DNA of 63,088 bases from Archaeoglobi archaeon JdFR-42 (GTDB lineage: Archaea > Halobacteriota > Archaeoglobi > Archaeoglobales > JdFR-42). The stretch covers positions 1 through 63,088 of the forward strand of contig MTND01000040.1 in the NCBI GenBank assembly GCA_002010305.1, given 5' to 3'. The position numbers were made by a program, and so were the translations under genes. Under the pieces are notes generated by a model, which was not told the DNA's origin, made no database searches, and worked only from the letters and a program-made list of their open reading frames with translations. Position 1 is the stretch's first letter. Each line of letters opens with the position of its first letter. Below, piece by piece: positions 7,540 to 50,006 of this stretch.

Positions 7540-7935
7540 ATGAAGAGAGAGATTAAATTTCTTTTTTATTTTATTTTGTTTATTTCTCTAATATCTGTGA
7601 CTTCAGGCAGACCGATGTATATGAAAACTTTTGTTGACTTTCCTGATGAGGTTAAGGTCTGTACTACATGCCATGTACAATCTTCAGGATATGGTGGATT
7701 GAATCCCTTTGGAAAAGATTTTTATGAATCCGGAAAAAGCTTAACACCAGAATTGATGCAACTGGACTCAGATGGAGACCTGTTTTCAAACATAGAAGAA
7801 TTAAGAGCTGGAACAAATCCAGGAGATAGTGGCTCTACTCCAAAAGAGGAATCGCCAGGAATGACTGCCATTATCGCGATTTCAGCTATAACACTTCTGG
7901 TAATTATCAGGCATACAGGTAAAAAGAGGAAATAA
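7540..7935 (+). CDS. Exported monoheme c-type cytochrome-like protein with Ca-binding loop and PGF-CTERM-like tail
   Basis: A 131-aa secreted protein. Residues 4-22 form a signal peptide (FLFYFILFISLISVTSG). One heme c attachment motif, CTTCH, is at 41-45, followed by GYGGLNPFGKDFYESG. A calcium-loop-like stretch (DSDGD at 76-80, then NIEELRAGTNPGDSG) resembles thrombospondin type 3 repeats, often found beside such cytochromes. After a Ser/Thr/Pro linker the protein ends with SPGMTAI, a hydrophobic helix and a basic end (HTGKKRK), the layout of a PGF-CTERM archaeosortase signal. It would be exported, loaded with heme by the Ccm system encoded at 14-19 kb, and anchored to the cell surface. Electron partner unknown. 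Confidence 0.75.
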   Translation: MKREIKFLFYFILFISLISVTSGRPMYMKTFVDFPDEVKVCTTCHVQSSGYGGLNPFGKDFYESGKSLTPELMQLDSDGDLFSNIEELRAGTNPGDSGSTPKEESPGMTAIIAISAITLLVIIRHTGKKRK

Positions 7936-14112: not shown

Positions 14113-16122
14113 CTAAATTCGAGATTCTATTTTCATTCGCCTCATTTTTTCTCTCTTACGTTTCAATCGTAAATCATCTATAAGAGTGCAAATCATCCCA
14201 GAAGCCATTAAAAAAATTCCCACCCACAATGGCATAACCCACGGGATAATCTTGATTTTCAATGGAATCAATATTTCAGAAGGATTACTGGGATTTTGAA
14301 CTACACCCTGAAAGATCACATATATATCTTTAGAAATCCCTCTGTCAATGTACACGTCTGTAACAGTACCATATGGAGAATCTCTGAAAACGGCTACCCC
14401 TTCGCTCAGTTTCGTTCCGCCAGAATATATCCCGACAAAGACAGCCTGTTTCCAGAAACCCTGCCTATCTTGATGAACATCAAATCTATATAACTTGATT
14501 CCAATTTCATCAACCATTTTAATGATTCCCTGTTCCTCTATTTCAAAAGTTACCACCTGTTCTCTCTCAAAGGAGGTCGAAACAACGGCTCCAGCGAGTA
14601 TGAAAATTATTGAAATGTGGATTATATGTTTACCCCATATTCTGAGTGAGTTTTTTGGATTCGATAATTTCTTCAAATCCCTTCGGATTGCAAAGCCTAT
14701 TCCGATAAGAGCATATATTACAGGCGGAACCAGAGACAGTAGCGATAAACTGGCGAAAGCCCTGGTTAATCCAGAACTTTTAACAAAAAAAGACTTGTCA
14801 GGCTCAACAAGCATATAATCTTTACCGGGAGTTATGAAAAGCAGAACTAAAGTCAAGATTGTAAAAATCAGAGAAATCTGGATCAGAAGCTTTATATTTC
14901 GTTTATTGAATGCAAAACAAAAACCAAGAACTCCCAGAAGAATCAGAACAAATGGGTAGCTCCACAGATTAAAAAACTCAGGATCTACTGCTATTTGCTG
15001 GTTCCTGACAGCCTGAGAAATAAGGGGAAAAGTTAGCCCCCAGAAAGATATAAAAGCAAGAATTGAGAGGATAACCACTGTTATAAAGAGAATTGTTCTT
15101 TCATGATCTTGACTTTCGTCTTCTTCCATTTTATAGTGCCGGTCATGATAATATACAGAAAATACAAGCATCACTAGACCAAAAATTAGAAATCCTGCAA
15201 GAAATAATCCTGTGGTAGTTTCTGAAAAAGCATGGACAGACTGCCAGAGGCCGCTCCTAGTTATAAATGTTGCATAAACCACCAGAATAAAAGTAATTAT
15301 ACCCACAGACGGTGTATATAATCGAAGAGCTTGTTTAGTTCTAAACTGGTAAGATCCATGAAGATAGGCCGTAAGAGTTAACCAAGGGATTAAAGATGAG
15401 GTTTCAACCGGATCCCATGCCCAGAAACCTCCCCATCCCAGAACCTTGTAACTCCAGTATCCTCCAACCGCAATTCCTAGAGTCAAAAATAACCAAGAAC
15501 CCTTAGCCCACGACCTGCCTATTACTTCATATCTGGAATCGTTGGTCCACAAGTATAGCAGCGAGCCTGCAAAAGTTATTGTAACAAGGGCATATCCGAT
15601 GAAAATTATAGGGGGGTGAATGGCCATCCACGGATCCTGTAAAAGGGGATTTAGCCCCCTGCCATCTGGAGGTATAAAAGTTCCAGGTAACGATGGTTCT
15701 ATCTCATAAATGGTTTTATAGGGAGACATAAGGACAGTGAGAAAGATAAAAAACGCATTTACAACAGTTGTGATTGTTATTACATCCCGGTATCTCTTTC
15801 TGGAAATTCCTCGACGAAGTACGAAAATACTTATTGAAATTATCCAAGCCCATAATAAATATGTCCCTTCCTGACCAGCCCATACAGCTGAAAATTTATA
15901 GACTAATGGCAACTCATGACTGGAGTAAGAATACACATAAAAATATCTGAAATCTGAAGAAAGAAAATAGTAAGTAAGAAGCAGTACATCAATGGTCAAA
16001 AGAATAAACACACCTACCAGAAGTTTTTTCGCAAATCTGATATTCTTTCCAGTCCTTATTAATAAAATCGAAAGTACGGTGAGAAGGAAAGAGAGGATTA
16101 AAAATATATCCCCTACAGTCAT
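14113..16122 (-). CDS. ccmF: Cytochrome c maturation protein CcmF (heme lyase subunit)
   Basis: A 669-aa polytopic membrane protein of the HHP family, last gene of the ccm operon. The tryptophan-rich WWD heme-handling motif WGGFWAWD is at residues 230-237 and the conserved histidine region WMAIHPPIIFIGY at about 165-177; some 14 hydrophobic segments are visible. A soluble region before the last membrane helix (about 525-630) matches the periplasmic domain. CcmF takes heme from holo-CcmE and joins it to CxxCH cysteines outside the membrane. It overlaps ccmE by 4 bp. It is about the size of bacterial CcmF, with no CcmH fused. Confidence 0.93.
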   Translation of the reverse strand: MTVGDIFLILSFLLTVLSILLIRTGKNIRFAKKLLVGVFILLTIDVLLLTYYFLSSDFRYFYVYSYSSHELPLVYKFSAVWAGQEGTYLLWAWIISISIFVLRRGISRKRYRDVITITTVVNAFFIFLTVLMSPYKTIYEIEPSLPGTFIPPDGRGLNPLLQDPWMAIHPPIIFIGYALVTITFAGSLLYLWTNDSRYEVIGRSWAKGSWLFLTLGIAVGGYWSYKVLGWGGFWAWDPVETSSLIPWLTLTAYLHGSYQFRTKQALRLYTPSVGIITFILVVYATFITRSGLWQSVHAFSETTTGLFLAGFLIFGLVMLVFSVYYHDRHYKMEEDESQDHERTILFITVVILSILAFISFWGLTFPLISQAVRNQQIAVDPEFFNLWSYPFVLILLGVLGFCFAFNKRNIKLLIQISLIFTILTLVLLFITPGKDYMLVEPDKSFFVKSSGLTRAFASLSLLSLVPPVIYALIGIGFAIRRDLKKLSNPKNSLRIWGKHIIHISIIFILAGAVVSTSFEREQVVTFEIEEQGIIKMVDEIGIKLYRFDVHQDRQGFWKQAVFVGIYSGGTKLSEGVAVFRDSPYGTVTDVYIDRGISKDIYVIFQGVVQNPSNPSEILIPLKIKIIPWVMPLWVGIFLMASGMICTLIDDLRLKRKREKMRRMKIESRI

Positions 16123-16529
16123 TCACCAGCCCTTTCCCGTATTTTTTCCTGATATTTACTGGGGCATTTAGCCAGAAGTTTTACCGCTTTAAACGTGCCA
16201 TCAGGACCGATTGTCCCATACACAACACACCCCTGTGATGGATCAAAAGCAGCTGGCAAATCTCCCTCGTACACCACATGCATATTCATCTTACCATCAG
16301 TTAAGTCAAACTCATATACTTTCGGATTATCTGACACTTGCCTGAAGCTGCCATCTACGATGAGACCGGCCACATACACGGGTTCACTACTATACTTGCT
16401 ATCTTCCTTCACTTCCCATACATACTTATAAGGGCTCAAAAACTGAGAAAGGCTGGAATAGGCAATTACCAGTACAATTACGATTATAGCAATACCTATG
16501 AGAACCTTTTTATTATCCAAAGGATTCAT
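16119..16529 (-). CDS. ccmE: Heme chaperone CcmE, Cys-type (CxxxY)
   Basis: A 136-aa protein with one N-terminal membrane anchor (residues 9-26) and an exported OB-fold domain. In Escherichia coli the covalent heme ligand is His in an HxxxY motif; here the equivalent position reads KCPSKY, giving Cys122 and Tyr126 (CxxxY). This Cys variant is known from archaeal and some sulfate-reducer Ccm systems. It follows the CcmD-like gene with an ATGA overlap and overlaps ccmF by 4 bp. Its role is to carry heme from CcmABCD to CcmF. Confidence 0.93.
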   Translation of the reverse strand: MNPLDNKKVLIGIAIIVIVLVIAYSSLSQFLSPYKYVWEVKEDSKYSSEPVYVAGLIVDGSFRQVSDNPKVYEFDLTDGKMNMHVVYEGDLPAAFDPSQGCVVYGTIGPDGTFKAVKLLAKCPSKYQEKIRERAGE

Positions 16530-16675
16530 CTCCTTTTCTCAATTTCTTTTCCATAGCCTGAACGTTCTAATAACCTCATCGCCTTCTTTAGCTTCAACAC
16601 CATATCAATGTGAAGGCCAAGCATTATGATCATAAAAATCAAAACTGCAAGGAAAACACCTGTCAAAATTTCCAT
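16526..16675 (-). CDS. ccmD: CcmD-like small membrane protein
   Basis: A 49-aa frame starting ATG at 16675, directly after the ccmC stop, and ending TGA at 16526-16528, overlapping the ccmE ATG. It has one membrane helix (LAVLIFMIIMLGL, about residues 9-21) followed by a basic cytoplasmic-looking tail (LKLKKAMRLLERSGYGKEIEK). Position between ccmC and ccmE, size and topology match CcmD, which helps release holo-CcmE from CcmABC. Sequence conservation in CcmD is poor, so the call rests on context. GGAGGTGG at the end of ccmC acts as ribosome-binding site. Confidence 0.75.
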   Translation of the reverse strand: MEILTGVFLAVLIFMIIMLGLHIDMVLKLKKAMRLLERSGYGKEIEKRR

Positions 16676-17350
16676 TTACACCACCTCCTGGATCCGAGAT
16701 TCTAATTTTTTTATTTGCACATCTATCCATAACAGACTCCCAAAGATGAGGGTCAAGGCAATTATCATGGTGACGAAGACCTGTATCATATTCGGTTCAA
16801 GCTGTATTCCCGAAGTTCTTATCACTACCGGATGCAGGGAATACCAGATCCTTGTGGAAAGATAAGATAACGGAACTGCTACATAGCCGAAAATAGCAAG
16901 AATTGCTGACGATCTGGCTTTTGCTTCAAATTCTTCTATTGCAGATCTAAGGGCAAAATATGCAGCATACACAAACCAGAGGATCAACACTGTGGTCTGT
17001 CTTGGATCCCAGTTCCAGTAAGCACCCCACGCGAGTTTTGACCATATGGAACCCATGAATAGAGCTGAAGTTATGAAAACAAGTCCGAGCTTTGCAGAAG
17101 AGGAAGACACATAATCATATACCACATTTCGCTTAGCCAGATACAAAATGCTGAAAATGAGAGTGAAAGTGAATCCAAGAAAAGAGATAATGGCCGCTGG
17201 AGTGTGGAAAAAGAAAATACGGTAACTATCTCCTAAAGTTCTCTCAGGTCCTAGTACTAAGAGGGCCCGATAAGCTGCAAATATGGCCAGAACAAATCCA
17301 ATAATAGAAACTAACATGAAAATTCCTGGTTTTTTATTGGTAATCTTCAC
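16676..17350 (-). CDS. ccmC: Cytochrome c maturation protein CcmC (heme transfer to CcmE)
   Basis: A 224-aa membrane protein with six predicted helices. The WWD motif WGAYWNWD is at residues 108-115, flanked by conserved histidines in FFHTP (His49) and SLHP (His173), the axial ligands of heme in CcmC. CcmC presents heme to CcmE on the outer face. It starts 55 bp after ccmB; the ccmD-like gene follows with no gap. Confidence 0.93.
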   Translation of the reverse strand: MKITNKKPGIFMLVSIIGFVLAIFAAYRALLVLGPERTLGDSYRIFFFHTPAAIISFLGFTFTLIFSILYLAKRNVVYDYVSSSSAKLGLVFITSALFMGSIWSKLAWGAYWNWDPRQTTVLILWFVYAAYFALRSAIEEFEAKARSSAILAIFGYVAVPLSYLSTRIWYSLHPVVIRTSGIQLEPNMIQVFVTMIIALTLIFGSLLWIDVQIKKLESRIQEVV

Positions 17351-17405
17351 TCCCTCCTTTTTTAGCCTCTATCGGTCATATATCTCCGCTATACCTATAT
17401 AAGCT

Positions 17406-18068
17406 TTAATCTTCGAGGGCGTGGTCAAAAGTTAGCAAAGAGACCGTGAGCATGATAATCGTAAATGATAATATGAGTACAATTTCCTGTGAGGTATCCA
17501 TTAACCCACCACCTTTTATTGCAGTAGAGAGGGCACTGATGGTAGATGAAATTATTGGATAAATCACGGGAAACAAGATGATAGGAATGAGTAATTCTCT
17601 GGATTTGGCCTTTAATACCAGAGGAGATAGAGATGATGAAACCACCACAAAGCCCACATTACCAAGGGTAATCACTCCAAAAGCCAGAAAAAGATTCTCT
17701 ACTCTGAGATCAAACAGCCCAATAAACAGCGGAAAAACAATTAACTCAATAATCAATACCAGAACAAGATTGTAGATAATTTTTCCAAGGAGTATATCTG
17801 CTGGAGATACAGGTGCGATTTTAAGACCATCAAGGGTACCCATCTCCAATTCTCTTAAAAAAGCCCGTGAAAACCCGAGAAGTCCAACAAAAAGAAAGAC
17901 TAGCCATAATAAACCAGGGGCGACATCTCTAACCGCACTTAAAGGTACAGAGATACTGAACATCATGGAAGTAATTAGTCCGAATAGAATCATGAAAGTA
18001 ATGGTATTTTTCGTCCTGAATTCGATCTTAAGATCTTTGAAAGCTATTTCAAAAATATCCTGCATCAT
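17406..18068 (-). CDS. ccmB: Heme exporter protein CcmB
   Basis: A 220-aa ABC-type membrane subunit with about six hydrophobic helices. The family segment FSRAFLRELEMGTLDGLKIAPVSPADILLGK spans about residues 65-95; only its start (FSRAFLRELEMGTLDGLK) is quoted as the key motif. CcmB pairs with CcmA to release heme-loaded CcmE. Its ATG overlaps the ccmA stop. A second ATG immediately follows the first. Confidence 0.92.
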   Translation of the reverse strand: MMQDIFEIAFKDLKIEFRTKNTITFMILFGLITSMMFSISVPLSAVRDVAPGLLWLVFLFVGLLGFSRAFLRELEMGTLDGLKIAPVSPADILLGKIIYNLVLVLIIELIVFPLFIGLFDLRVENLFLAFGVITLGNVGFVVVSSSLSPLVLKAKSRELLIPIILFPVIYPIISSTISALSTAIKGGGLMDTSQEIVLILSFTIIMLTVSLLTFDHALED

Positions 18069-18766
18069 GAGCCTTCCACCAGAGAAAGATAATACTCTTT
18101 CAGGTCGAGAGATTCTTTAACTTCAGTGATTTCCAGCACCTGTCCTTTATTCATTATGGCTACTACATCACAAACCCTATATACCTCTTCGAGATTATGA
18201 GTGGTAAATACAATAGTTCGATTTTCGGCTTTAATGGCATCAATAAGCCTGAAAAGTTCCATTCTGCTCTGTATGTCCAGACCTGCTGTGGGTTCATCCA
18301 GTATTACGAGATCTGGGGAATGTAAAAGAGCACGGGCTATAGCAAGTCTCTGTTTCATACCCCTGGAAAAATTTCTTACCAGATCGTCTGCCCGTTCATA
18401 CAGATTCATTTTACTAAGAATCTCTTTAATTTTTTTATCCAGAGATTCGACACCATATAGCTTGCCATAAAATCCAAGATTTTCCCATGCAGATAGATCA
18501 TCATACAGAAACGTATTATGAGATATTACACCCAGTCTTTTTTTTACATTTTTTGAGAATTCTCTTGTATTCTCTCCAAAAACCCTGACCTCTCCTGAGG
18601 TGGGCTTTACCTGTCCACTTAAAATCCTGACAAAAGTAGTCTTTCCTGCCCCATTTGGCCCAAGTAATGCAAAAGACTCGCCTTTCTTCACATTAAAAGT
18701 TACATCATTTAGAGCTAGAAAATTTCCATATCGCTTTACAAGATTTCTAACTTCGATAGCATTCAT
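18065..18766 (-). CDS. ccmA: Heme exporter ATP-binding protein CcmA
   Basis: A 233-aa ABC ATPase with Walker A GPNGAGKTT at 36-44, signature FSRGMKQR, Walker B LVILDEP and switch histidine in VFTTHNLEEV. The F-S-R-G-M signature is typical of CcmA-like ATPases rather than LSGGQ importers. Its ATG overlaps the stop of the upstream FAD oxidoreductase by 4 bp, tying that enzyme to the ccm genes. Confidence 0.92.
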   Translation of the reverse strand: MNAIEVRNLVKRYGNFLALNDVTFNVKKGESFALLGPNGAGKTTFVRILSGQVKPTSGEVRVFGENTREFSKNVKKRLGVISHNTFLYDDLSAWENLGFYGKLYGVESLDKKIKEILSKMNLYERADDLVRNFSRGMKQRLAIARALLHSPDLVILDEPTAGLDIQSRMELFRLIDAIKAENRTIVFTTHNLEEVYRVCDVVAIMNKGQVLEITEVKESLDLKEYYLSLVEGS

Positions 18767-40980: not shown

Positions 40981-41736
40981 TTATTTTTTATAAAAAAGTT
41001 TTTCATGGAGTGTGACAACCCTTCCAATAACCACAATTGCAGGAGGTCTTACTTTATTCTTTTCCGCCATATCTACTATATTCTTCAGCTTACCAACTGT
41101 AACTTTTTGGAAAGGTGTCGTTCCTTTCTCGATTATTGCTACAGGTGTTTCTGGGCTCATACCATATCCTAAAAGGCGAGTGATGTTGTCTGCAAGTTTT
41201 TTTACACCCATCAAGATGACCAAAGTTCCTCCAAGTTCAGCTAACGCTTTCCAGTTAATCGATGTCTTCTCTTTCTCATCTGCCTCATGACCTGTGATAA
41301 ATGTTACAGAAGAGGCAAAATCTCTGTGAGTCACAGGAATCCCAGCACTAGCAGGTACTGCAATGGCAGAGGTTATCCCCGGTACCACTTCGACCTCAAT
41401 TCCCTCTTCAGCGATTACTTCAGCCTCTTCTCCACCTCTTCCAAACAGATAGGGATCACCGCCTTTCAATCTGACTACTGTTTTTCCTTCTTTTGCGTAC
41501 CCAACAATCATCTGATTTATCTCATCTTGAGAATATCTGTGAAATCCCCCCCTCTTACCAACATCAATTAATTCAGCTTCCATTTCCATGAGCATCTCTA
41601 TAATCTGCTCTCCGACAAGACTATCATATAGAATCACATCAGCTTCCTCAAGAACTCTCCTGGCTTTTACGGTCATTAATTCTGGGTCTCCTGGTCCAGC
41701 TCCGACCAGGAAAACCTTACCGAACCGCTTTTTCAA
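40981..41736 (-). CDS. cobA: Uroporphyrinogen-III C-methyltransferase
   Basis: A 251-aa SAM-dependent methyltransferase (SUMT) that makes precorrin-2. Motifs: FLVGAGPGDPELMTVKARRV, LYDSLV, VRLKGGDPYLFGRGGEEA (about 92-109) and VPGITSAIAVPASAGIPVTH. It lacks a HemD fusion, which matters because no hemD is seen here. Its ATG overlaps hemC by 20 bp; it ends the operon. Confidence 0.95.
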   Translation of the reverse strand: MKKRFGKVFLVGAGPGDPELMTVKARRVLEEADVILYDSLVGEQIIEMLMEMEAELIDVGKRGGFHRYSQDEINQMIVGYAKEGKTVVRLKGGDPYLFGRGGEEAEVIAEEGIEVEVVPGITSAIAVPASAGIPVTHRDFASSVTFITGHEADEKEKTSINWKALAELGGTLVILMGVKKLADNITRLLGYGMSPETPVAIIEKGTTPFQKVTVGKLKNIVDMAEKNKVRPPAIVVIGRVVTLHEKLFYKK

Positions 41737-42619
41737 TCAAATCTCCTCCTCCTTTTTCCACTAACATATTACCAATTTTTCTGGCTTCTTTGATCCAGTC
41801 ATCAAAAGGTATTGATTTCTCAACCCTTACTGTCTCTTCCCCATTAGAAGAAAGGATCTCGGCAATAACTTCAATAATCGAACCGGTATAACGGGCATGT
41901 ACTCCTACAGGGACTATACATCCTGCCCCAAGAACCCGGATTATCTCTCTTTCTACCATTCCTTCCACATATGTCGTCTCATGATTATAATCTCTCACCA
42001 GATACTCTTCTCCTTTCCTAGTAGCAATGGCTACTATTCCCTGATTGGCTGATGGAACGAAATCTTTCAGGTTCAGAGGTTTGTAATCAGCAGAAATTCC
42101 AAGTCGTTTGATTCCAGCTTCAGCAAGAATGATGGCATCATACATACCTTCCCGAAGTTTCCTCAAGCGTGTATCAACATTTCCCCTCAGATTTTCCACA
42201 ATGACATCCTTTCGGTATCGTTTGAGCTGTGCTCTCCTTCTCATGCTTGAAGTGCCAATAACAGCTCCTGAGGGCAGTTCATCCAGATTTCCTTTCCTTG
42301 ATACTAGAACATCGAATGGGCTCTCTCTTGGCAGTACTGCTGCAATCACTGTACCCTCTATTCCCTTCGTTGGAACATCTTTAAGGCTATGGACTGCTAC
42401 ATCAATTACTCCTTTTACAAGAAGTTTATCGATTTCTCTTACAAAGGCACCCATCCCACCGAATTCGGTAAGAGGTTTTTCAGTAAATCGATCACCACTT
42501 GTTTTTACAATCTTTATTTCATATTCGACACCATCTTTTGAGAGAAGATCTGCCACCATCTTTGTCTGGGCTAATGCGAGTTTACTGCCCCTTGTTCCTA
42601 TCACAATCTTTTCAGACAT
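41717..42619 (-). CDS. hemC: Porphobilinogen deaminase (hydroxymethylbilane synthase)
   Basis: A 300-aa enzyme that links four porphobilinogens. [16 protein letters not shown] at the N terminus, [22 protein letters not shown] and [12 protein letters not shown] are all present. Cys234, in [11 protein letters not shown], carries the dipyrromethane cofactor. It overlaps both hemL (19 bp) and cobA (20 bp). Confidence 0.96.
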
Positions 42620-43872
42620 ACATGTACGGCCTCAATGGTTTTCTGAATATCTTCTGTTTCATGAGCGTAGCTTATAAAGCAGGTTTCATACTGGGAGGGG
42701 GGGAAAAATATCCCTTCTTTCAAGAGTTCGTAGAAGAACTGAAGAAATCGATCTTTATCACATTGCAACGCTTCCTCATAATTACCCGGTGTTTCACCAA
42801 AAAAGAGGCAAAACATAGAGCCCAGTGACGAGAGATTATATTCCAATTTCAGATCATGAATTGTATCATTTATCCCCTTGTTTAATTCCTTTCCACACTG
42901 TTCCAGGTACCCATAGACATCATTATTTCTCAGAAAGCGAAGAGTGGCGAGTCCAGCTGCCAGTACTAACGGATTTCCATTAAAAGTCCCGGCCTGATAC
43001 ACCTTCCCAGACGGAGATAAATGCTCCATTATCTCCTCTTTTCCACCTACAATACCAAAAGGGAGTCCTCCCCCTGCTATCTTTCCAAGAGTGGTTAAAT
43101 CGCTGTGCACCCCATAGTAATCCTGGGCACCTCCATAGGATACCCTAAAACCAGTTATAACTTCGTCAAAAATCAGCAGTACATCATTCTCTTCTGTGAC
43201 GCGTCTCACTTCTTTGAGATATCCATCCTTAGGTAAAATAAGGCCTGAGTTTCCCATCACTGGCTCCATTATAAGACAGGCAACATTATCTCTGTTTTTC
43301 TCAATCAACTCGATCAATGCCTCAACATCGTTATAGGGTACCTGGAGTGTGTTTTTCACAAAATCTACAGGCACACCCATAGAGTTGGGCACCCCGTGTG
43401 TTGTAGCTCCAGACCCAGCCTTTACAAGCACAGCATCATGGGCGCCATGGAATCCTCCTTCAATTTTAATAACCTTCTCCTTACCTGTAAACCCCCTTGC
43501 AATCCTAAGGGCTGACATAGTAGCTTCCGAGCCAGAATTCACAAACCTGACCATCTCAATACTTTCAAACGCATCAGCTATCATTTGAGCCATATCCAGT
43601 TCAGATGGAGTGGGAGTGCCATACAACCATCCTTTTTCCATCTGCTCGGCTATGGCCTGCTGAATAGTAGGATTTCTGTGTCCAAGTATCAGAGGGCCGT
43701 ATCCCATACAATAGTCAATATACTCATTCCCATCGACATCATAAAGTTTTGAGCCTTCTGCTCTAACTGTATAAAAGGGGTAAGGCTTTATCGCCCTGAC
43801 AGGACTGCTAACACCACCCGGAAGTAGATTCCTGGCCTTCCGATATAATTTCTCAGATTTCTCCATATTCAT
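42601..43872 (-). CDS. hemL: Glutamate-1-semialdehyde 2,1-aminomutase
   Basis: A 423-aa PLP enzyme of the C5 pathway. Family motifs: [37 protein letters not shown] and [15 protein letters not shown]; the PLP lysine is Lys264 in [14 protein letters not shown]. The ATG at 43872 gives the normal N terminus and overlaps hemB by 20 bp; upstream in-frame ATGs would extend it into hemB. Confidence 0.95.
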
Positions 43873-44833
43873 GCAATCGCCTCGCCACATCTTTAGCAAA
43901 GTACGTGAGTATAAGATCAGCTCCAGCTCTTTTAATGGAGATCAACATCTCATTAACTATTTCCTCTTCTTTCAGCCATCCCTGTATAGCTGCTGCCTTT
44001 ACCATTGCATACTCTCCACTAACGTTGTATGCTGCTGTCGGCATACCGAATTCAGATTTAACTTTGATGATGATATCTAGATAGCTTAGAGCAGGTTTAA
44101 CCATAATAATGTCTGCTCCTTCAATGATATCTAGCTCCACCTCACGCAATGCCTCGTCGGAATTGGGGGGATCCATCTGATACCCCATTCTATCTCCGAA
44201 TGAGAACCCTGAGTCTGCTGCATCTCTGAAGGGGCCGTAAAACGCCGAAGCATATTTTGCTGCATAAGACATTATCAACACATTCTCATAACCCTCTTCA
44301 TCGAGGGATGTTCTTATGGCCTCAACCATTCCATCCATCATACCAGAAGGGGCAACAATATCAGCTCCAGCTCTTGCATGGCTTACTGCAGTTTTTCCTA
44401 GTATTTCCAGAGTAGGGTCATTGAGCACAGATTCATTTTCTACTATGCCACAATGGCCATGAGAGGTGTACTCACACAAACACACATCTGTAATCACTAC
44501 AGCGTCTGGATGGTCAGCTTTTATAGATTTCACTGCCCTTTGAATTACACCATCCTCATCAAAAGCTGAAGAACCGATATCATCCTTTGAGGAAGGAATG
44601 CCAAAAAGGATGAACGCCTTTAAGCCAGTTTCAAGACAATTACCCACTTCATCAGAAATCTGTTCAACTGGATATCTGTACTGGCCTGGCATTGATGATA
44701 TCTCTACAGGTTTTTTTATAGTCTCATCCACAAAAAAGGGCATTATAAGGTCATTAACAGAAAGAGTTGTTTCACGAATTAACGGCCTGATTCTCTCCAG
44801 TCTTAACCTCCTCATCCTTCTTTTCGGAAACAT
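43853..44833 (-). CDS. hemB: Porphobilinogen synthase (5-aminolevulinate dehydratase)
   Basis: A 326-aa TIM-barrel enzyme. It starts with the usual [11 protein letters not shown] and contains the zinc-binding cysteines [14 protein letters not shown], plus the two Schiff-base lysines in [15 protein letters not shown] and [12 protein letters not shown]. The Cys set indicates a zinc-dependent type. The likely ATG at 44833 follows GGTGA; it lies 62 bp inside the end of hemA, an unusually long overlap. Confidence 0.95.
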
Positions 44834-46076
44834 CATGAGTTTCACCAGTTACAAAGAGCTTTTCTACCGCTTTTATTAAATCTTTCGATTCATTTCGAGC
44901 TGCATTTCGTAACACCACAGTAGGCCTGTGAAAGAGTTTTTTTATTAGAGACGAAGCAAAATCCTCAAGGACTGGAAGCACCTCTTCATCTACTCCGTAC
45001 CTCGCTTTCAGTTTATGAAACAGTTCTACGATTTCGTGATCCTTTATAGTTTCAGCAGAACCATAAATTCTACTTATGAGATCATTAACTTCTCTTTCTT
45101 TGAGCAACTGACTAAGATGGTTTAACTCTTCAGCAATAATAGCTTCTGCTTTTTTTGCCTCTTTCAACCTCCTCTCTAGATTTTTCCTGCTGATCTCTCT
45201 CAAACCATCTATAGTCACAACGACCACATCGTCTATATCCTCAACACCCTCTTCAATATCCCGCGGAAGTGCTATGTCTATAAGATATAACGGTTGATTT
45301 CTCAGTTTCATCACACCTTCCACCAGAGATTTTGTAATGACCGGGTGTGGTGCTGCAGTGGCAGAAATCACAACATCACAACCAACCATATACTTGCCAA
45401 GTTCCTCGAAGGGTACTGCTATACCATCAATCTTATTGGCAAGAAACTTTGCTCTTTCAAAGGTTCTGTTTGCCACCAGAATTACATCGGCGTTCTTATG
45501 AGCTAGTGCCCTTGCCACAAGGGTTCCCATCTCACCTGCTCCCACAATCAGCACTTTTTTATCCTTAAAAGAGCCTAACCTGTTTTCTGCAAGCTGTACA
45601 GCCGCAGATCCTATCGAAACTGCCCCCTTATTTATGGAAGTTCGATTACGTACTTTCTTACCTACATTAATGGCTTTTTTAAAAACTATATCCAGTATTT
45701 CTCCAACTCCTCCCATTTCCTTGGCAAGACAGTAAAACTCTTTTACCTGACCCAGAATCTGATCCTCCCCTACCATCATAGATTCAAGGCCAGAAGCGAC
45801 TCTGAGAAGATGCTCCAAACATTTCGAATTTTCGTGGATTTCAATTATTCGTTCACATACATTCATGCGTTTAGCAAAAGAATATAGAAACTCTTTACAT
45901 TGGGTACCCACAACGTACAGTTCGACACGGTTACATGTATTTAAGACAGCACACTCTTTTATACCAGGATTCGAGAGAACCTGCTCAATAAGAGATCTGT
46001 AATCACCATGCCAGGCCTTCTGGATTTCTTCAACACTAGCCCGCTTATGGGAAATTACCAGATTTGCGATCTCCAT
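44772..46076 (-). CDS. hemA: Glutamyl-tRNA reductase
   Basis: A 434-aa enzyme, first committed step of the C5 pathway. Catalytic Cys48 is in [14 protein letters not shown]; the NADPH domain contains [20 protein letters not shown] near 170-190, and [17 protein letters not shown] follows. The C-terminal ~20 residues ([17 protein letters not shown]) are a charged tail that exists because the frame overlaps hemB. It overlaps the met8-like gene by 32 bp. Confidence 0.95.
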
Positions 46077-46701
46077 TTTTCAACCTCTTAAAAGCATATC
46101 TTTCAGCTTCTTCATAAGATTGGTCAAGCAACTCCCACATATGAGCATCATTCATAATCTCCCATAGGAGTTTTTCTCTTTCTTTCTGATCTGATATCTC
46201 CATTTTAATGTAATTTCTTAGCTCTGTAATAAGTTTTACCATTAAATCAAAATTCTTCGGGATACATTCCTCTAATTTAATCCTTAATAATTTTGAGAGA
46301 CCAGGACTCATACCATGAGTAGAAATGGCTATAGAGAAATTGTCCTTTGATATCAGGGAAGGGAGGAGGACTTCCCCCGCAGATGTGGTGAGGTTCACAA
46401 GCTTCCCCATTCGTTGAGCTTCTTTAGCTATTTTTTCATTTAACGAAGGATCATTTGTGGCTGGAATAACCAGAAATGCATCCTGAAGGAATCTATGGAA
46501 ATTATGTTCATTGATAGTGGCAACAATGATCTCAACTCTATGATTTGCCATTTGTTTAAAATCAGAGGGTATGGATTCACTAATAATCCTTATTTTAGCC
46601 TTACCCATAAAATAAAGCATTTTTCTTTTACCCACTGATCCTGCTCCAAAAATAACCACCAGTTTGTTACTGAAGTCCAGAAAAATTGGAAGGTATTTCA
46701 T
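46045..46701 (-). CDS. Precorrin-2 dehydrogenase/sirohydrochlorin ferrochelatase (Met8/CysG N-terminal type)
   Basis: A 218-aa NAD-dependent enzyme that oxidises precorrin-2 and may insert iron to give siroheme. The N terminus YLPIFLDFSNKLVVIFGAG, with GAGSVGKRK replacing the more usual GGGxVAxRK, is diagnostic, and ISTHGMSPGLSKLLRIKLE is the dimer/active-site region. It is 7 bp downstream of ahbB and overlaps hemA. Confidence 0.92.
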   Translation of the reverse strand: MKYLPIFLDFSNKLVVIFGAGSVGKRKMLYFMGKAKIRIISESIPSDFKQMANHRVEIIVATINEHNFHRFLQDAFLVIPATNDPSLNEKIAKEAQRMGKLVNLTTSAGEVLLPSLISKDNFSIAISTHGMSPGLSKLLRIKLEECIPKNFDLMVKLITELRNYIKMEISDQKEREKLLWEIMNDAHMWELLDQSYEEAERYAFKRLKNGDRKSGNFP

Positions 46702-46708
46702 ACACCCT

Positions 46709-47188
46709 TTACCTGACTCTGAAATGAGTCTTTTTATACTCTTTCACACTCCACACAACACGATATTCTTTCTCCCCTATCGTCTTGGAAATCTCTTCTA
46801 TCTTCTCAATTACTTCATCTCTTGTTCTTCCATGGATCATGGCATATATATTGTAATTCCAGTCTTCTAATCTTGGGCGTTCATAACAGTGGGTGACCTC
46901 TGGGAACTCTGCAATTTTCCTACCGATTTCTTCAACCCTATCATCCTCAACATTCCATACAACCATCCCATTAGCTCCAAATCCAGCCTTCCTGTGTTTA
47001 ATGGATGCACTTAACCTCCTGATCACTCCCAGTGATATTAATCTTCGTAATCGCTCCATTACTTCATCTTCATTGATTCCAAGTCTTTTCCCGATTTCCA
47101 GATATGGCCGTCCCTCTATGGGAAACCAGTCCTGGATCAATCGTATCAGTTTCCAGTCCATTTCATCTAAATTCGAATTTGACTCCAA
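46709..47188 (-). CDS. ahbB: Siroheme decarboxylase subunit AhbB (Lrp/AsnC fold)
   Basis: A 159-aa protein with an Lrp-like helix-turn-helix (about 8-65) and RAM-like domain. It resembles a regulator, but features of siroheme decarboxylase are present: VIRRLSASIKHRKAGFGANG, EVTHCYERP with the active-site His, WNYNIYAMIHG and the C-terminal WSVKEYKKTHFRV. AhbA and AhbB together decarboxylate siroheme to didecarboxysiroheme. Overlaps the ahbA fusion by 26 bp. Confidence 0.88.
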   Translation of the reverse strand: MESNSNLDEMDWKLIRLIQDWFPIEGRPYLEIGKRLGINEDEVMERLRRLISLGVIRRLSASIKHRKAGFGANGMVVWNVEDDRVEEIGRKIAEFPEVTHCYERPRLEDWNYNIYAMIHGRTRDEVIEKIEEISKTIGEKEYRVVWSVKEYKKTHFRVR

Positions 47189-48263
47189 TTTTAAACACCC
47201 TCTTCGCTGGCAGGTTATATGGTTTATATCCAGTTACGTCTTCAATTTTCTTAAGGATTTCTTGCACTCTTTTTTCATCTTTTGCGGTTATAGTAAACCA
47301 CAAATTGTATCCACCATCCCTTGCATAATTGTGTGTAACTTCAGGGAACAACCCTATACTCTCTGCCACACTATCTAAATCTTCCGGCTCAACCTTCATG
47401 GCAACCAGAGTACTCACATATCCAATAGCCCGGGGATTTATTATCGGTCCGATCCTCCGGATTATACCTTTGTCAATCAGACGTTCAATAGTCTGAAGTA
47501 CCTGCTTCTCAGATAAATTAATTTGTTCTCCGATCACTTTAAACGGTCGTTGTTCCACAGGAATTTCATTCTGAATTATGTTCAACAACTTTTTTTCTGA
47601 TCTGTTCATACTACCCACATCATCAACTCCTAAATCGTCATACAACCGGTAAGCAAGGCTGAATATTATATCTACAAGAATTGCAAACAGGCCTACCAGA
47701 TATATAGCATCAAAAACTCCAGCCCCTCCAAAAATCAATGAGAACTCATGAGGGACAGTTTGGCTGATTTTTGTCAGGTTAAGGATGTCCGCTCCAATTA
47801 TAACACCCATACTCCCAGAGATATACGCAATTGGTCCTTTTTCGTCATATTTCCTAGTAGAAGCAAGAGAATATAGAGAAGATACGAGAACGATAGCGGG
47901 TATGTTGCTCACTAGCACGCCCTCTAAACTCACCTCAGAATTGGTTTGAACTAGGTATCCAACAATAGCTATTCCAACTAAAGATCTGATAAGCGGTGCT
48001 CTTTTGGTCACAATCAGTCTGATGGATAATAAAAACGGGATTAAAAAACCTGCTATATTAGCCATTAGATTCATGTTGTTGTACGTGATTAAATGAATAT
48101 CAGGGAGATAAAAAAAGGCAACGAGAGAACCAAAGACTACTACCAGTGTCTCACTAAAAGTAAATCCGACAGAGGCAAAAGCCCTGATCACATAATACAT
48201 CAAAATTGCGATAAAGGTTATTGCAAGGGCCGATATTATCAATATCGTATGGGCTACCATCAT
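47163..48263 (-). CDS. ahbA: DUF1614 membrane domain fused to siroheme decarboxylase subunit AhbA
   Basis: A 366-aa fusion. Residues 1-~208 form a polytopic membrane domain of the DUF1614 type (IFGGAGVFDAIYLVGLFAIL near 177-196 is its hallmark). Residues 219-366 are a full-length AhbA: EIPVEQRPFKVIGEQINLS, GIIRRIGPIINPRAIGY, EVTHNYARDGGYNLWF and the end LPAKRVFKIGVKFE. Inside the frame, AGGAG (47627-47631) lies 8 nt before an in-frame GTG at 47616-47618 (Val216), and ATG Met219 follows, so free AhbA could also be made. The ATG at 48263 is 25 bp from a TATA box and probably leaderless. First gene of the tetrapyrrole operon. Confidence 0.88.
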   Translation of the reverse strand: MMVAHTILIISALAITFIAILMYYVIRAFASVGFTFSETLVVVFGSLVAFFYLPDIHLITYNNMNLMANIAGFLIPFLLSIRLIVTKRAPLIRSLVGIAIVGYLVQTNSEVSLEGVLVSNIPAIVLVSSLYSLASTRKYDEKGPIAYISGSMGVIIGADILNLTKISQTVPHEFSLIFGGAGVFDAIYLVGLFAILVDIIFSLAYRLYDDLGVDDVGSMNRSEKKLLNIIQNEIPVEQRPFKVIGEQINLSEKQVLQTIERLIDKGIIRRIGPIINPRAIGYVSTLVAMKVEPEDLDSVAESIGLFPEVTHNYARDGGYNLWFTITAKDEKRVQEILKKIEDVTGYKPYNLPAKRVFKIGVKFEFR

Positions 48264-48283
48264 TCTCGAGTTTAATCAACTCT

Positions 48284-48291
48284 TATAAAAT
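48284..48291 (-). promoter_or_regulatory. TATA box of the tetrapyrrole operon
   Basis: TTTTATAA on the minus strand, centred about 25 bp before the ATG at 48263, predicting a leaderless message. Just upstream is a loose dyad, GTTAAA (48296-48301) and TTTAAC (48312-48317), which could bind a regulator but is AT-rich enough to be chance. Confidence 0.5.
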
Positions 48292-48744: not shown

Positions 48745-48884
48745 AGTCTTACATGGAGGGGTTTATCTCTTGCAAAGTTTATATAAAGAGAGTTCATATT
48801 GAACAAAAAAGAGACTAAAATTCGTTGAAAACGAAGTTTAATTGTCGAGAGAGCTTGGAAAGGCTCTGCTTGCAAATAAAAAAG

Positions 48885-50006
48885 ATGATAAAAGGAGAGA
48901 AAACTACATATAAAATAAAAAAATTATTGAAGTTTGTAATGCGTAAACAAATTATTATCGCTGGACTACTTCTGGGCCTTTTTATACAGATTATCTCGGC
49001 CTATGACTCTATTTCTGTAGATAACAATATTCCTGAAACCAACGGATGTGATAAAAATATAATGCCCGATGACTTGTATGATGACTTTACAGACGCGATT
49101 AACACAGTACTTGAGAGTGGTGTCATGGACGATGTCGATAAGCAAATAAAGAACAAAACTAATACCAACAAAAAGGTTCCAATCGAAATATATCTTGTTG
49201 ATGAGGAAGAATTTAAAGAGGAATATAGTAATGACGTTGATGATATATATCCAGAGAAATCAAAAACTGATCTTGAAAAAGAGGCAGTGAACATATTTGA
49301 AAATAATACAGGATATACATACACAACCGATACAGTGAAAAATGGAGTCCAAGTGGTTAAAATAAAATTCTTCTGCAAAGACGATCTGAGAACTTCCACC
49401 ATAGATAATACCGAATCAAGTGGCTACAAACTGTATGATCTTATTATTCATGAGTTAGTTCATGCTAAACTATACTCGATTATGATACTGAATGGCACTA
49501 AACCCTTTGAAGATCATGATGATAAATTTTATAAAGAAATAGAGAGACTTAAAGAAAAATTGATTGGCGAAATAAAAAAGAAGGAAGAAGATTCACGGAG
49601 AACATCTCAGGAACAAACTTCAATTGACATTGATAAGCTAGTAAATGCATATAATAACAACTCTGATGTGTCTCCATGGATCGTTAAAACTATGCTCAAT
49701 AATGAACGGATTAATATATTCATCACAAAGGAAAATGGCACATCGAATAGTATTCCTGAAACTATATCATTTAACCTTGAGACGAGAAAAGGCCAGATAA
49801 TCGAATATTCGGAAGGTCCAGGGTCAAAACCCACTATGAATCTATATATATCCGAAGAGAATTTTAAAAATCTGATGAACTCTCAGAATCCAGGATCTAC
49901 CTTCATCTCCCTTTATAGCAATGGCGATATAATTATAAAAGAGATCAGCCTTATGACAAAAATTAAATTTGGGATTGGAAAACTCCTCATGAGATTCTTC
50001 ACATAA
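48885..50006 (+). CDS. Secreted HExxH zinc-protease-like protein with SCP2-like C-terminal domain
   Basis: Counting from the ATG at 48885 the product is 373 aa; frames open from a TTG at 48825, and ATG 48939 is also possible. A basic N terminus leads into a signal/anchor helix (IIIAGLLLGLFIQIISA). The central domain has YDLIIHELVHAKLYSI, a zincin HExxH site, with EDHDDKFYKEIERL 18 residues on, supplying a third ligand as in SprT/WLM-type enzymes. The last ~110 residues (ETISFNLETRKGQIIEY, MNLYISEENFKNLM, NGDIIIKE) resemble an SCP2-like lipid-binding fold. Lys/Asp/Asn-rich composition is unlike the neighbours. Function unknown. Confidence 0.65.
   Translation: MIKGEKTTYKIKKLLKFVMRKQIIIAGLLLGLFIQIISAYDSISVDNNIPETNGCDKNIMPDDLYDDFTDAINTVLESGVMDDVDKQIKNKTNTNKKVPIEIYLVDEEEFKEEYSNDVDDIYPEKSKTDLEKEAVNIFENNTGYTYTTDTVKNGVQVVKIKFFCKDDLRTSTIDNTESSGYKLYDLIIHELVHAKLYSIMILNGTKPFEDHDDKFYKEIERLKEKLIGEIKKKEEDSRRTSQEQTSIDIDKLVNAYNNNSDVSPWIVKTMLNNERINIFITKENGTSNSIPETISFNLETRKGQIIEYSEGPGSKPTMNLYISEENFKNLMNSQNPGSTFISLYSNGDIIIKEISLMTKIKFGIGKLLMRFFT

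Follow-up and report, generated by a model that had tools for sequence, protein, structure and literature searches.

The window, the 63,088-nucleotide contig MTND01000040.1 of Archaeoglobi archaeon JdFR-42, contains a gene that appears to join a membrane protein family of no known function, DUF1614, to AhbA, a subunit of siroheme decarboxylase. The locus raises the question of whether the fusion is real, what a membrane-bound AhbA would be for, and whether the same gene also yields free AhbA.

The fusion gene in two related archaea

The ORF at 47163–48263 (− strand) is a single open frame of 366 codons with an ATG start and no internal stop. The computed mass of its product is 40.7 kDa, close to the full form of about 41 kDa expected by the first-pass annotation. 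Residues 1–208 (47640–48263, −) form a DUF1614 membrane domain with seven predicted helices, supported by Pfam, conservation among 36 sequences, and AlphaFold. A linker of about 10 residues (209–218; 47610–47639, −) was placed by the alignment of two genomes and by the full-length model. Residues 219–366 (47166–47609, −) form the AhbA domain, assigned with NF040708, PDB 4czd and 4ch7, and a residue check. Pfam DUF1614 (PF07758) matched residues 60–196 (E = 1.7e-22; 80.6 bits vs. a cut-off of 23.9), and the NCBIfam AhbA equivalog NF040708 matched residues 223–364 (156 bits vs. a cut-off of 140). The open frame and these matches confirmed the earlier description of one frame with a complete DUF1614 and a complete AhbA.

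Pfam divided the AhbA part into NirdL-like HTH (223–269) and AsnC_trans_reg2 (280–358), and the AhbB model scored below its cut-off on this domain. In the full-length model, the best match of the second domain was the solved AhbA. His311 and Arg315, four residues apart in VTHNYAR, correspond to His115 and Arg119 of the solved Desulfovibrio desulfuricans AhbA, which contact the bound product (iron ligand; propionate contact) (PMC4145669). Because the first 20 residues of the solved AhbA are disordered (PMC4145669), an N-terminal extension should be tolerated.

The partner subunit is encoded by ahbB (46709–47188, −; 187 bits vs. a cut-off of 125). AhbB His98, Tyr100, and Arg102 have proposed catalytic roles, with mutant support for Arg102 (PMC4145669), and the window AhbB retains H100, Y102, and R104. 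The ahbB gene overlaps the fusion gene: its TTG start lies within the last codons of the fusion (47163–47188), with an SD-like AGAGGG whose G001 counterpart (the second genome described below) is AAGGAGGG. From this arrangement, the start of ahbB is likely coupled to the end of the fusion gene.

As in the D. desulfuricans AhbA/AhbB (PDB 4czd/4un1; PMC4145669), the locus encodes a full AhbA with His/Arg and a separate AhbB with His/Tyr/Arg, but the purified D. desulfuricans enzyme has no membrane domain, whereas the fusion has one. AhbA joined to a pathway protein is a known theme, seen in NirDL (PDB 4ch7) and in the archaeal AhbA–AhbB and AhbAB–AhbD fusions (PMC11237513). Here the partner is instead an N-terminal membrane protein of a function-unknown family, and AhbB stays separate. 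Within the reach of our searches, DUF1614 and AhbA in one protein are an apparently unreported domain combination for a known enzyme.

G001, the sole other genome available from the window's family (f1), belongs to a different genus and carries the fusion on contig C206 (WAJW01000206.1; public record, 'Archaeoglobaceae archaeon' metagenome-assembled genome). The G001 protein has 364 amino acids, is fused end to end and in frame with no stop, and is 60–61% identical over the whole length, with His310 and Arg314 as the equivalents of His311 and Arg315. The linker is almost without conservation between the two. In each genome the fused gene alone exceeded the cut-off of the AhbA family (158.9 and 161.1 bits for NF040708 in the genome-wide search). 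The first-pass annotation had proposed searching AhbA homologues for the same fusion, and had named a stop or frameshift between the domains in independent reads of this genome, or absence of the fusion from all relatives, as arguments against it. The search succeeded in another genus at 61% identity, and the G001 gene is fused and free of stops.

The window genome (2.15 Mb, 99.6% completeness, two McrA genes) comprises 42 contigs and was probably assembled from a metagenome, but a separately assembled genome of another genus carries the same in-frame, end-to-end fusion, and an assembly or sequencing error joining two separate genes therefore has practically no probability. The DUF1614–AhbA fusion is confirmed as real. 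A scan of the genome collection with a domain alignment returned G001 and 79 other loci, with the AhbA fusion only in G001; the scan with the whole fusion as query returned no relative. The search of 394 genomes of the phylum, an even sample of a larger group, revealed no third case, and a joint domain scan of all loci obtained gave no DUF1614–AhbA fusion beyond the window genome and G001. The fusion is thus documented in two genomes, both fragmented and probably metagenome-assembled.

The membrane domain and the proposed enzyme

The search results show DUF1614 in many bacteria and archaea, and the literature search found no paper naming it. All 14 positions that are invariant in 36 DUF1614 proteins are kept in the fusion, indicating that its DUF1614 domain has not decayed into an anchor. 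D159 (GAD) and D185 (GGAGxFD), located in the last two helices, are invariant in the 36 sequences. The fusion contains both DUF1614 motifs, GxD and GGxGxxD, which were defined in this analysis from the same 36 sequences. The presence of GAD and GGAGxFD in adjacent helices gave the idea of an intramembrane aspartyl protease. It was rejected, as Foldseek with the high-confidence DUF1614 model found nothing in the PDB below E 0.6 and, at its sensitivity, no solved fold resembling the domain, and Pfam gave no protease match.

AlphaFold modeled the 208-residue membrane domain with a mean pLDDT of 95.3, as seven long helices whose loops on one face contain short strands. The full-length model showed two folded domains and a floppy linker, with low confidence at residues 214–217. 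Lys and Arg are mostly in loops 1–2, 3–4, and 5–6 and after helix 7, that is, on the face opposite to the strand-bearing loops. By the positive-inside rule, this placement predicts that the C-terminus of DUF1614 is inside and that the AhbA domain lies in the cytoplasm, together with its partner AhbB. A second DUF1614 paralogue was observed in both f1 genomes, directly 3′ of a small PRC-barrel gene (L048:5296–6250 and L049:5599–6568).

The fusion heads an operon on the − strand. It is followed by ahbB, met8 (precorrin-2 dehydrogenase/siroheme synthase N-terminal type; 46045–46701), hemA (glutamyl-tRNA reductase; 44772–46076), hemB (porphobilinogen synthase; 43853–44845), hemL (glutamate-1-semialdehyde aminomutase; 42601–43899), hemC (porphobilinogen deaminase; 41717–42619), and a cobA-type tetrapyrrole methylase gene (40981–41736); met8 to hemL were assigned by profile matches. 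G001 has the same gene order as far as its contig extends. The operon contains no AhbD, and a search of four genomes gave no protein above the cut-off of TIGR04545, the AhbD model. An AhbC candidate had TIGR04546 as its best match but scored below the cut-off of that model. Divergent from the operon start, a gene at 48825–50006 (+) encodes a 393-amino-acid protein with no Pfam match and a HELVH zinc-protease-like motif (IIHELVHAK).

On balance, we consider it probable that this gene, at the head of a tetrapyrrole operon, encodes a membrane-anchored siroheme decarboxylase subunit whose DUF1614 domain has its own tetrapyrrole role, with an extra soluble AhbA possible. The seven-helix DUF1614 would lie in the membrane, its C-terminus facing the cytoplasm, and hold AhbA through the short flexible linker, and AhbA would pair with soluble AhbB from the overlapping next gene. 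The pair would convert siroheme to 12,18-didecarboxysiroheme, which commits siroheme to heme. If siroheme decarboxylase is held at the membrane, the siroheme-to-heme branch can be organised there.

Candidate start signals at the domain junction

An SD-like AGGAG (47627–47631, −) lies 8 nt before an in-frame GTG, codon 216 (47616–47618, −), as the first-pass annotation had read. The predicted product from this candidate start is 17.3 kDa, not the 16.5 kDa given there for a soluble form. In another genome of this order, the 16S tail reads GGATCACCTCCT, which is complementary to AGGAG. ATG219, near the starts of stand-alone AhbA proteins, cannot use the AGGAG because 17 nt is too far. At the same junction, G001 has AGGAG-N9-ATG214 in a different nucleotide and amino-acid context. 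As to conservation of the internal AGGAG–GTG, an AGGAG and a start are found at the same place, but the G001 start is ATG with a spacing of 9. A strong in-frame SD plus ATG/GTG pair is found roughly every 1,100 codons of coding sequence in the window genome, and G001 has 20 in 15,779 codons; for the 21-codon stretch at the junction, the chance of such a pair is 1.9% and 2.6%, respectively. Since the pair in the window was seen first, only G001 is an independent test of the junction signal.

At the fusion start, a TATA-like TTTTATAA was read by eye at −27 (48283–48290, −), and a similar TATA-like TTTTATAC at −31 in G001. No SD was seen by eye at this start in either genome, and SD-like starts are also present at several genes further inside the operon. 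TATA-like boxes without an SD fit an operon whose first start is leaderless and whose internal starts are led by SD sites. The internal SD–GTG/ATG may let some ribosomes make free AhbA, and these signals make a second product from this gene plausible; the evidence is suggestive.

The anchored form could well be the sole product, with the junction signal a coincidence. This alternative, to which we give a substantial but less than even chance, differs from the anchored subunit with an optional soluble form only in the second product. It would agree with the frequency of strong SD–start pairs, not a rare feature of coding regions here (the window genome has 68 among 74,723 codons), and with the candidate start in the window being GTG and not the usual AhbA ATG. 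Internal in-frame initiation in an archaeon was, moreover, called a first in 2025, for Cas11b of Haloferax volcanii (PMC11899642). A coincidence is harder to reconcile with the independent SD–start at the same junction of G001, in a different sequence context. Cas11b has an internal in-frame start that gives the C-terminal part as a separate protein (PMC11899642), the arrangement suggested here. For Cas11b it was shown experimentally, whereas the DUF1614–AhbA junction offers a sequence signal alone.

It is unlikely that the frame holds two functionally separate proteins, whose stop was lost by drift and of which mainly free AhbA works, the fused form being incidental. The SD–start at the junction in both genomes, the almost unconserved linker, and the SD-like starts of other operon genes would all suit this reading. 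However, the open frame and the same spacing are kept across two genera at 61% identity, and TATA-like signals stand at the upstream start in both genomes. A stop in the linker would be costless if only free AhbA mattered, and neither genome has one.

A more specific version of the anchored-subunit model has the gene make both a leaderless, membrane-bound DUF1614–AhbA and an SD-started free AhbA. Siroheme decarboxylase would then be split between membrane and cytoplasm, and DUF1614 would sense or regulate tetrapyrrole flow from within the membrane. We regard this version as doubtful. If true, it would give a first function for DUF1614 and add to the archaeal examples of internal in-frame initiation. 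The junction start is a compact test case for such initiation in archaea.

DUF1614 next to hemA and the purpose of the fusion

In the tree, the fused DUF1614 domain is sister to the stand-alone DUF1614 of the Archaeoglobaceae-like family f2 (support 98/92). The f2 protein has the same domain (PF07758) in the same operon, but it is a separate protein, and ahbA is elsewhere. Stand-alone DUF1614 of this branch is immediately upstream of hemA in 12 of 12 f2 loci, which were picked because they hold such a DUF1614, and lies directly 5′ of hemA in at least five f2 genera (g8, g9, g11, g12, and g13). Six f2 genera (g5, g6, g7, g10, g14, and g15), as far as examined, have hemA with no DUF1614 just before it, indicating that the pathway can do without this partnership. 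The position in at least five genera indicates that the fused module is an old heme-operon partner and not a random anchor, and the neighbourhood data indicate that the fusion brought together two neighbouring members of a single pathway. The DUF1614 gene, already an operon partner, would have become joined end to end with ahbA.

In f2, AhbA and AhbB usually form a single protein, with most open frames at 308–348 amino acids; such fusions are found in most Euryarchaeota (PMC11237513). The f2 gene adjoins met8, away from hemA, in the two genomes examined (L046 and L047). Methanogen-type genomes usually have the order radical SAM (AhbD-like), ahbA, ahbB, met8, hemA, with no DUF1614. Identities and midpoint-rooted trees first pointed to a methanogen-like source of the ahbA–ahbB–met8 block, with hemA and DUF1614 native. 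This foreign origin was set aside as unproven: a single f1 + f2 clade was not rejected by AU tests for either protein (AhbA, p = 0.36; AhbB, p = 0.25), and the Met8 tree grouped f1 with f2 (97/96). It would be equally simple for the block to be ancestral and to have moved away in f2, the odd identities reflecting fast evolution there. The ahb block may have entered this site in f1, or f2 may have lost it from the site; the AU tests do not separate these histories.

In several other archaea of the phylum (L059, L061, L063, L065, L066, and L077), a DUF1614 gene of a related branch lies 3′ of argH–gatD–gatE (Glu-tRNA(Gln) amidotransferase); the families were checked in L059, and the other loci were assigned by likeness. 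GatDE and HemA both use glutamyl-tRNA, which could be relevant here or simply coincidental.

HemX, encoded in the hem operon of Bacillus and Staphylococcus, is likewise an integral membrane protein encoded with hemA (PMC5801465). It differs in having eight predicted helices with both ends outside, whereas the DUF1614 model has seven and a C-terminus predicted to be inside. The two showed no sequence relation, and the membrane domain of the fusion had no Pfam match to the HemX/cytochrome c assembly family. By analogy only, a membrane partner encoded with the hem genes and influencing the pathway, as HemX does in Firmicutes (PMC5801465), is a better model than tethering to Ccm, and DUF1614 may have its own job in tetrapyrrole handling or pathway control instead of being a mere anchor.

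In the first-pass annotation, the tether would place heme synthesis at the membrane, where heme is required by the Ccm system of cytochrome c maturation. The AhbA/B product is didecarboxysiroheme, and AhbC and then AhbD are still needed before heme, so AhbA/B acts two enzymes short of it. We consider this purpose very improbable. A ccmF-E-C-B-A cluster is present in the window (14113–18766, −), and the likely host has multiheme cytochromes (PMC6474303). However, the cluster is 28 kb from the fusion, with the shared product as the sole link, and the operon of the fusion has no AhbD. Stand-alone DUF1614 accompanies hemA, the first step, and elsewhere in archaea follows gatD–gatE, not ccm.

Being joined to AhbA in two related archaea, both known members of their family, DUF1614 is tied to heme synthesis. 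The main value of the finding is this pathway for the DUF1614 family, which the AhbA fusion and the repeated position before hemA make testable. Elsewhere in the window, a gene at 7540–7935 (+) encodes a small protein that looks secreted; it carries a CTTCH heme-binding motif and matches Temptin_C weakly.
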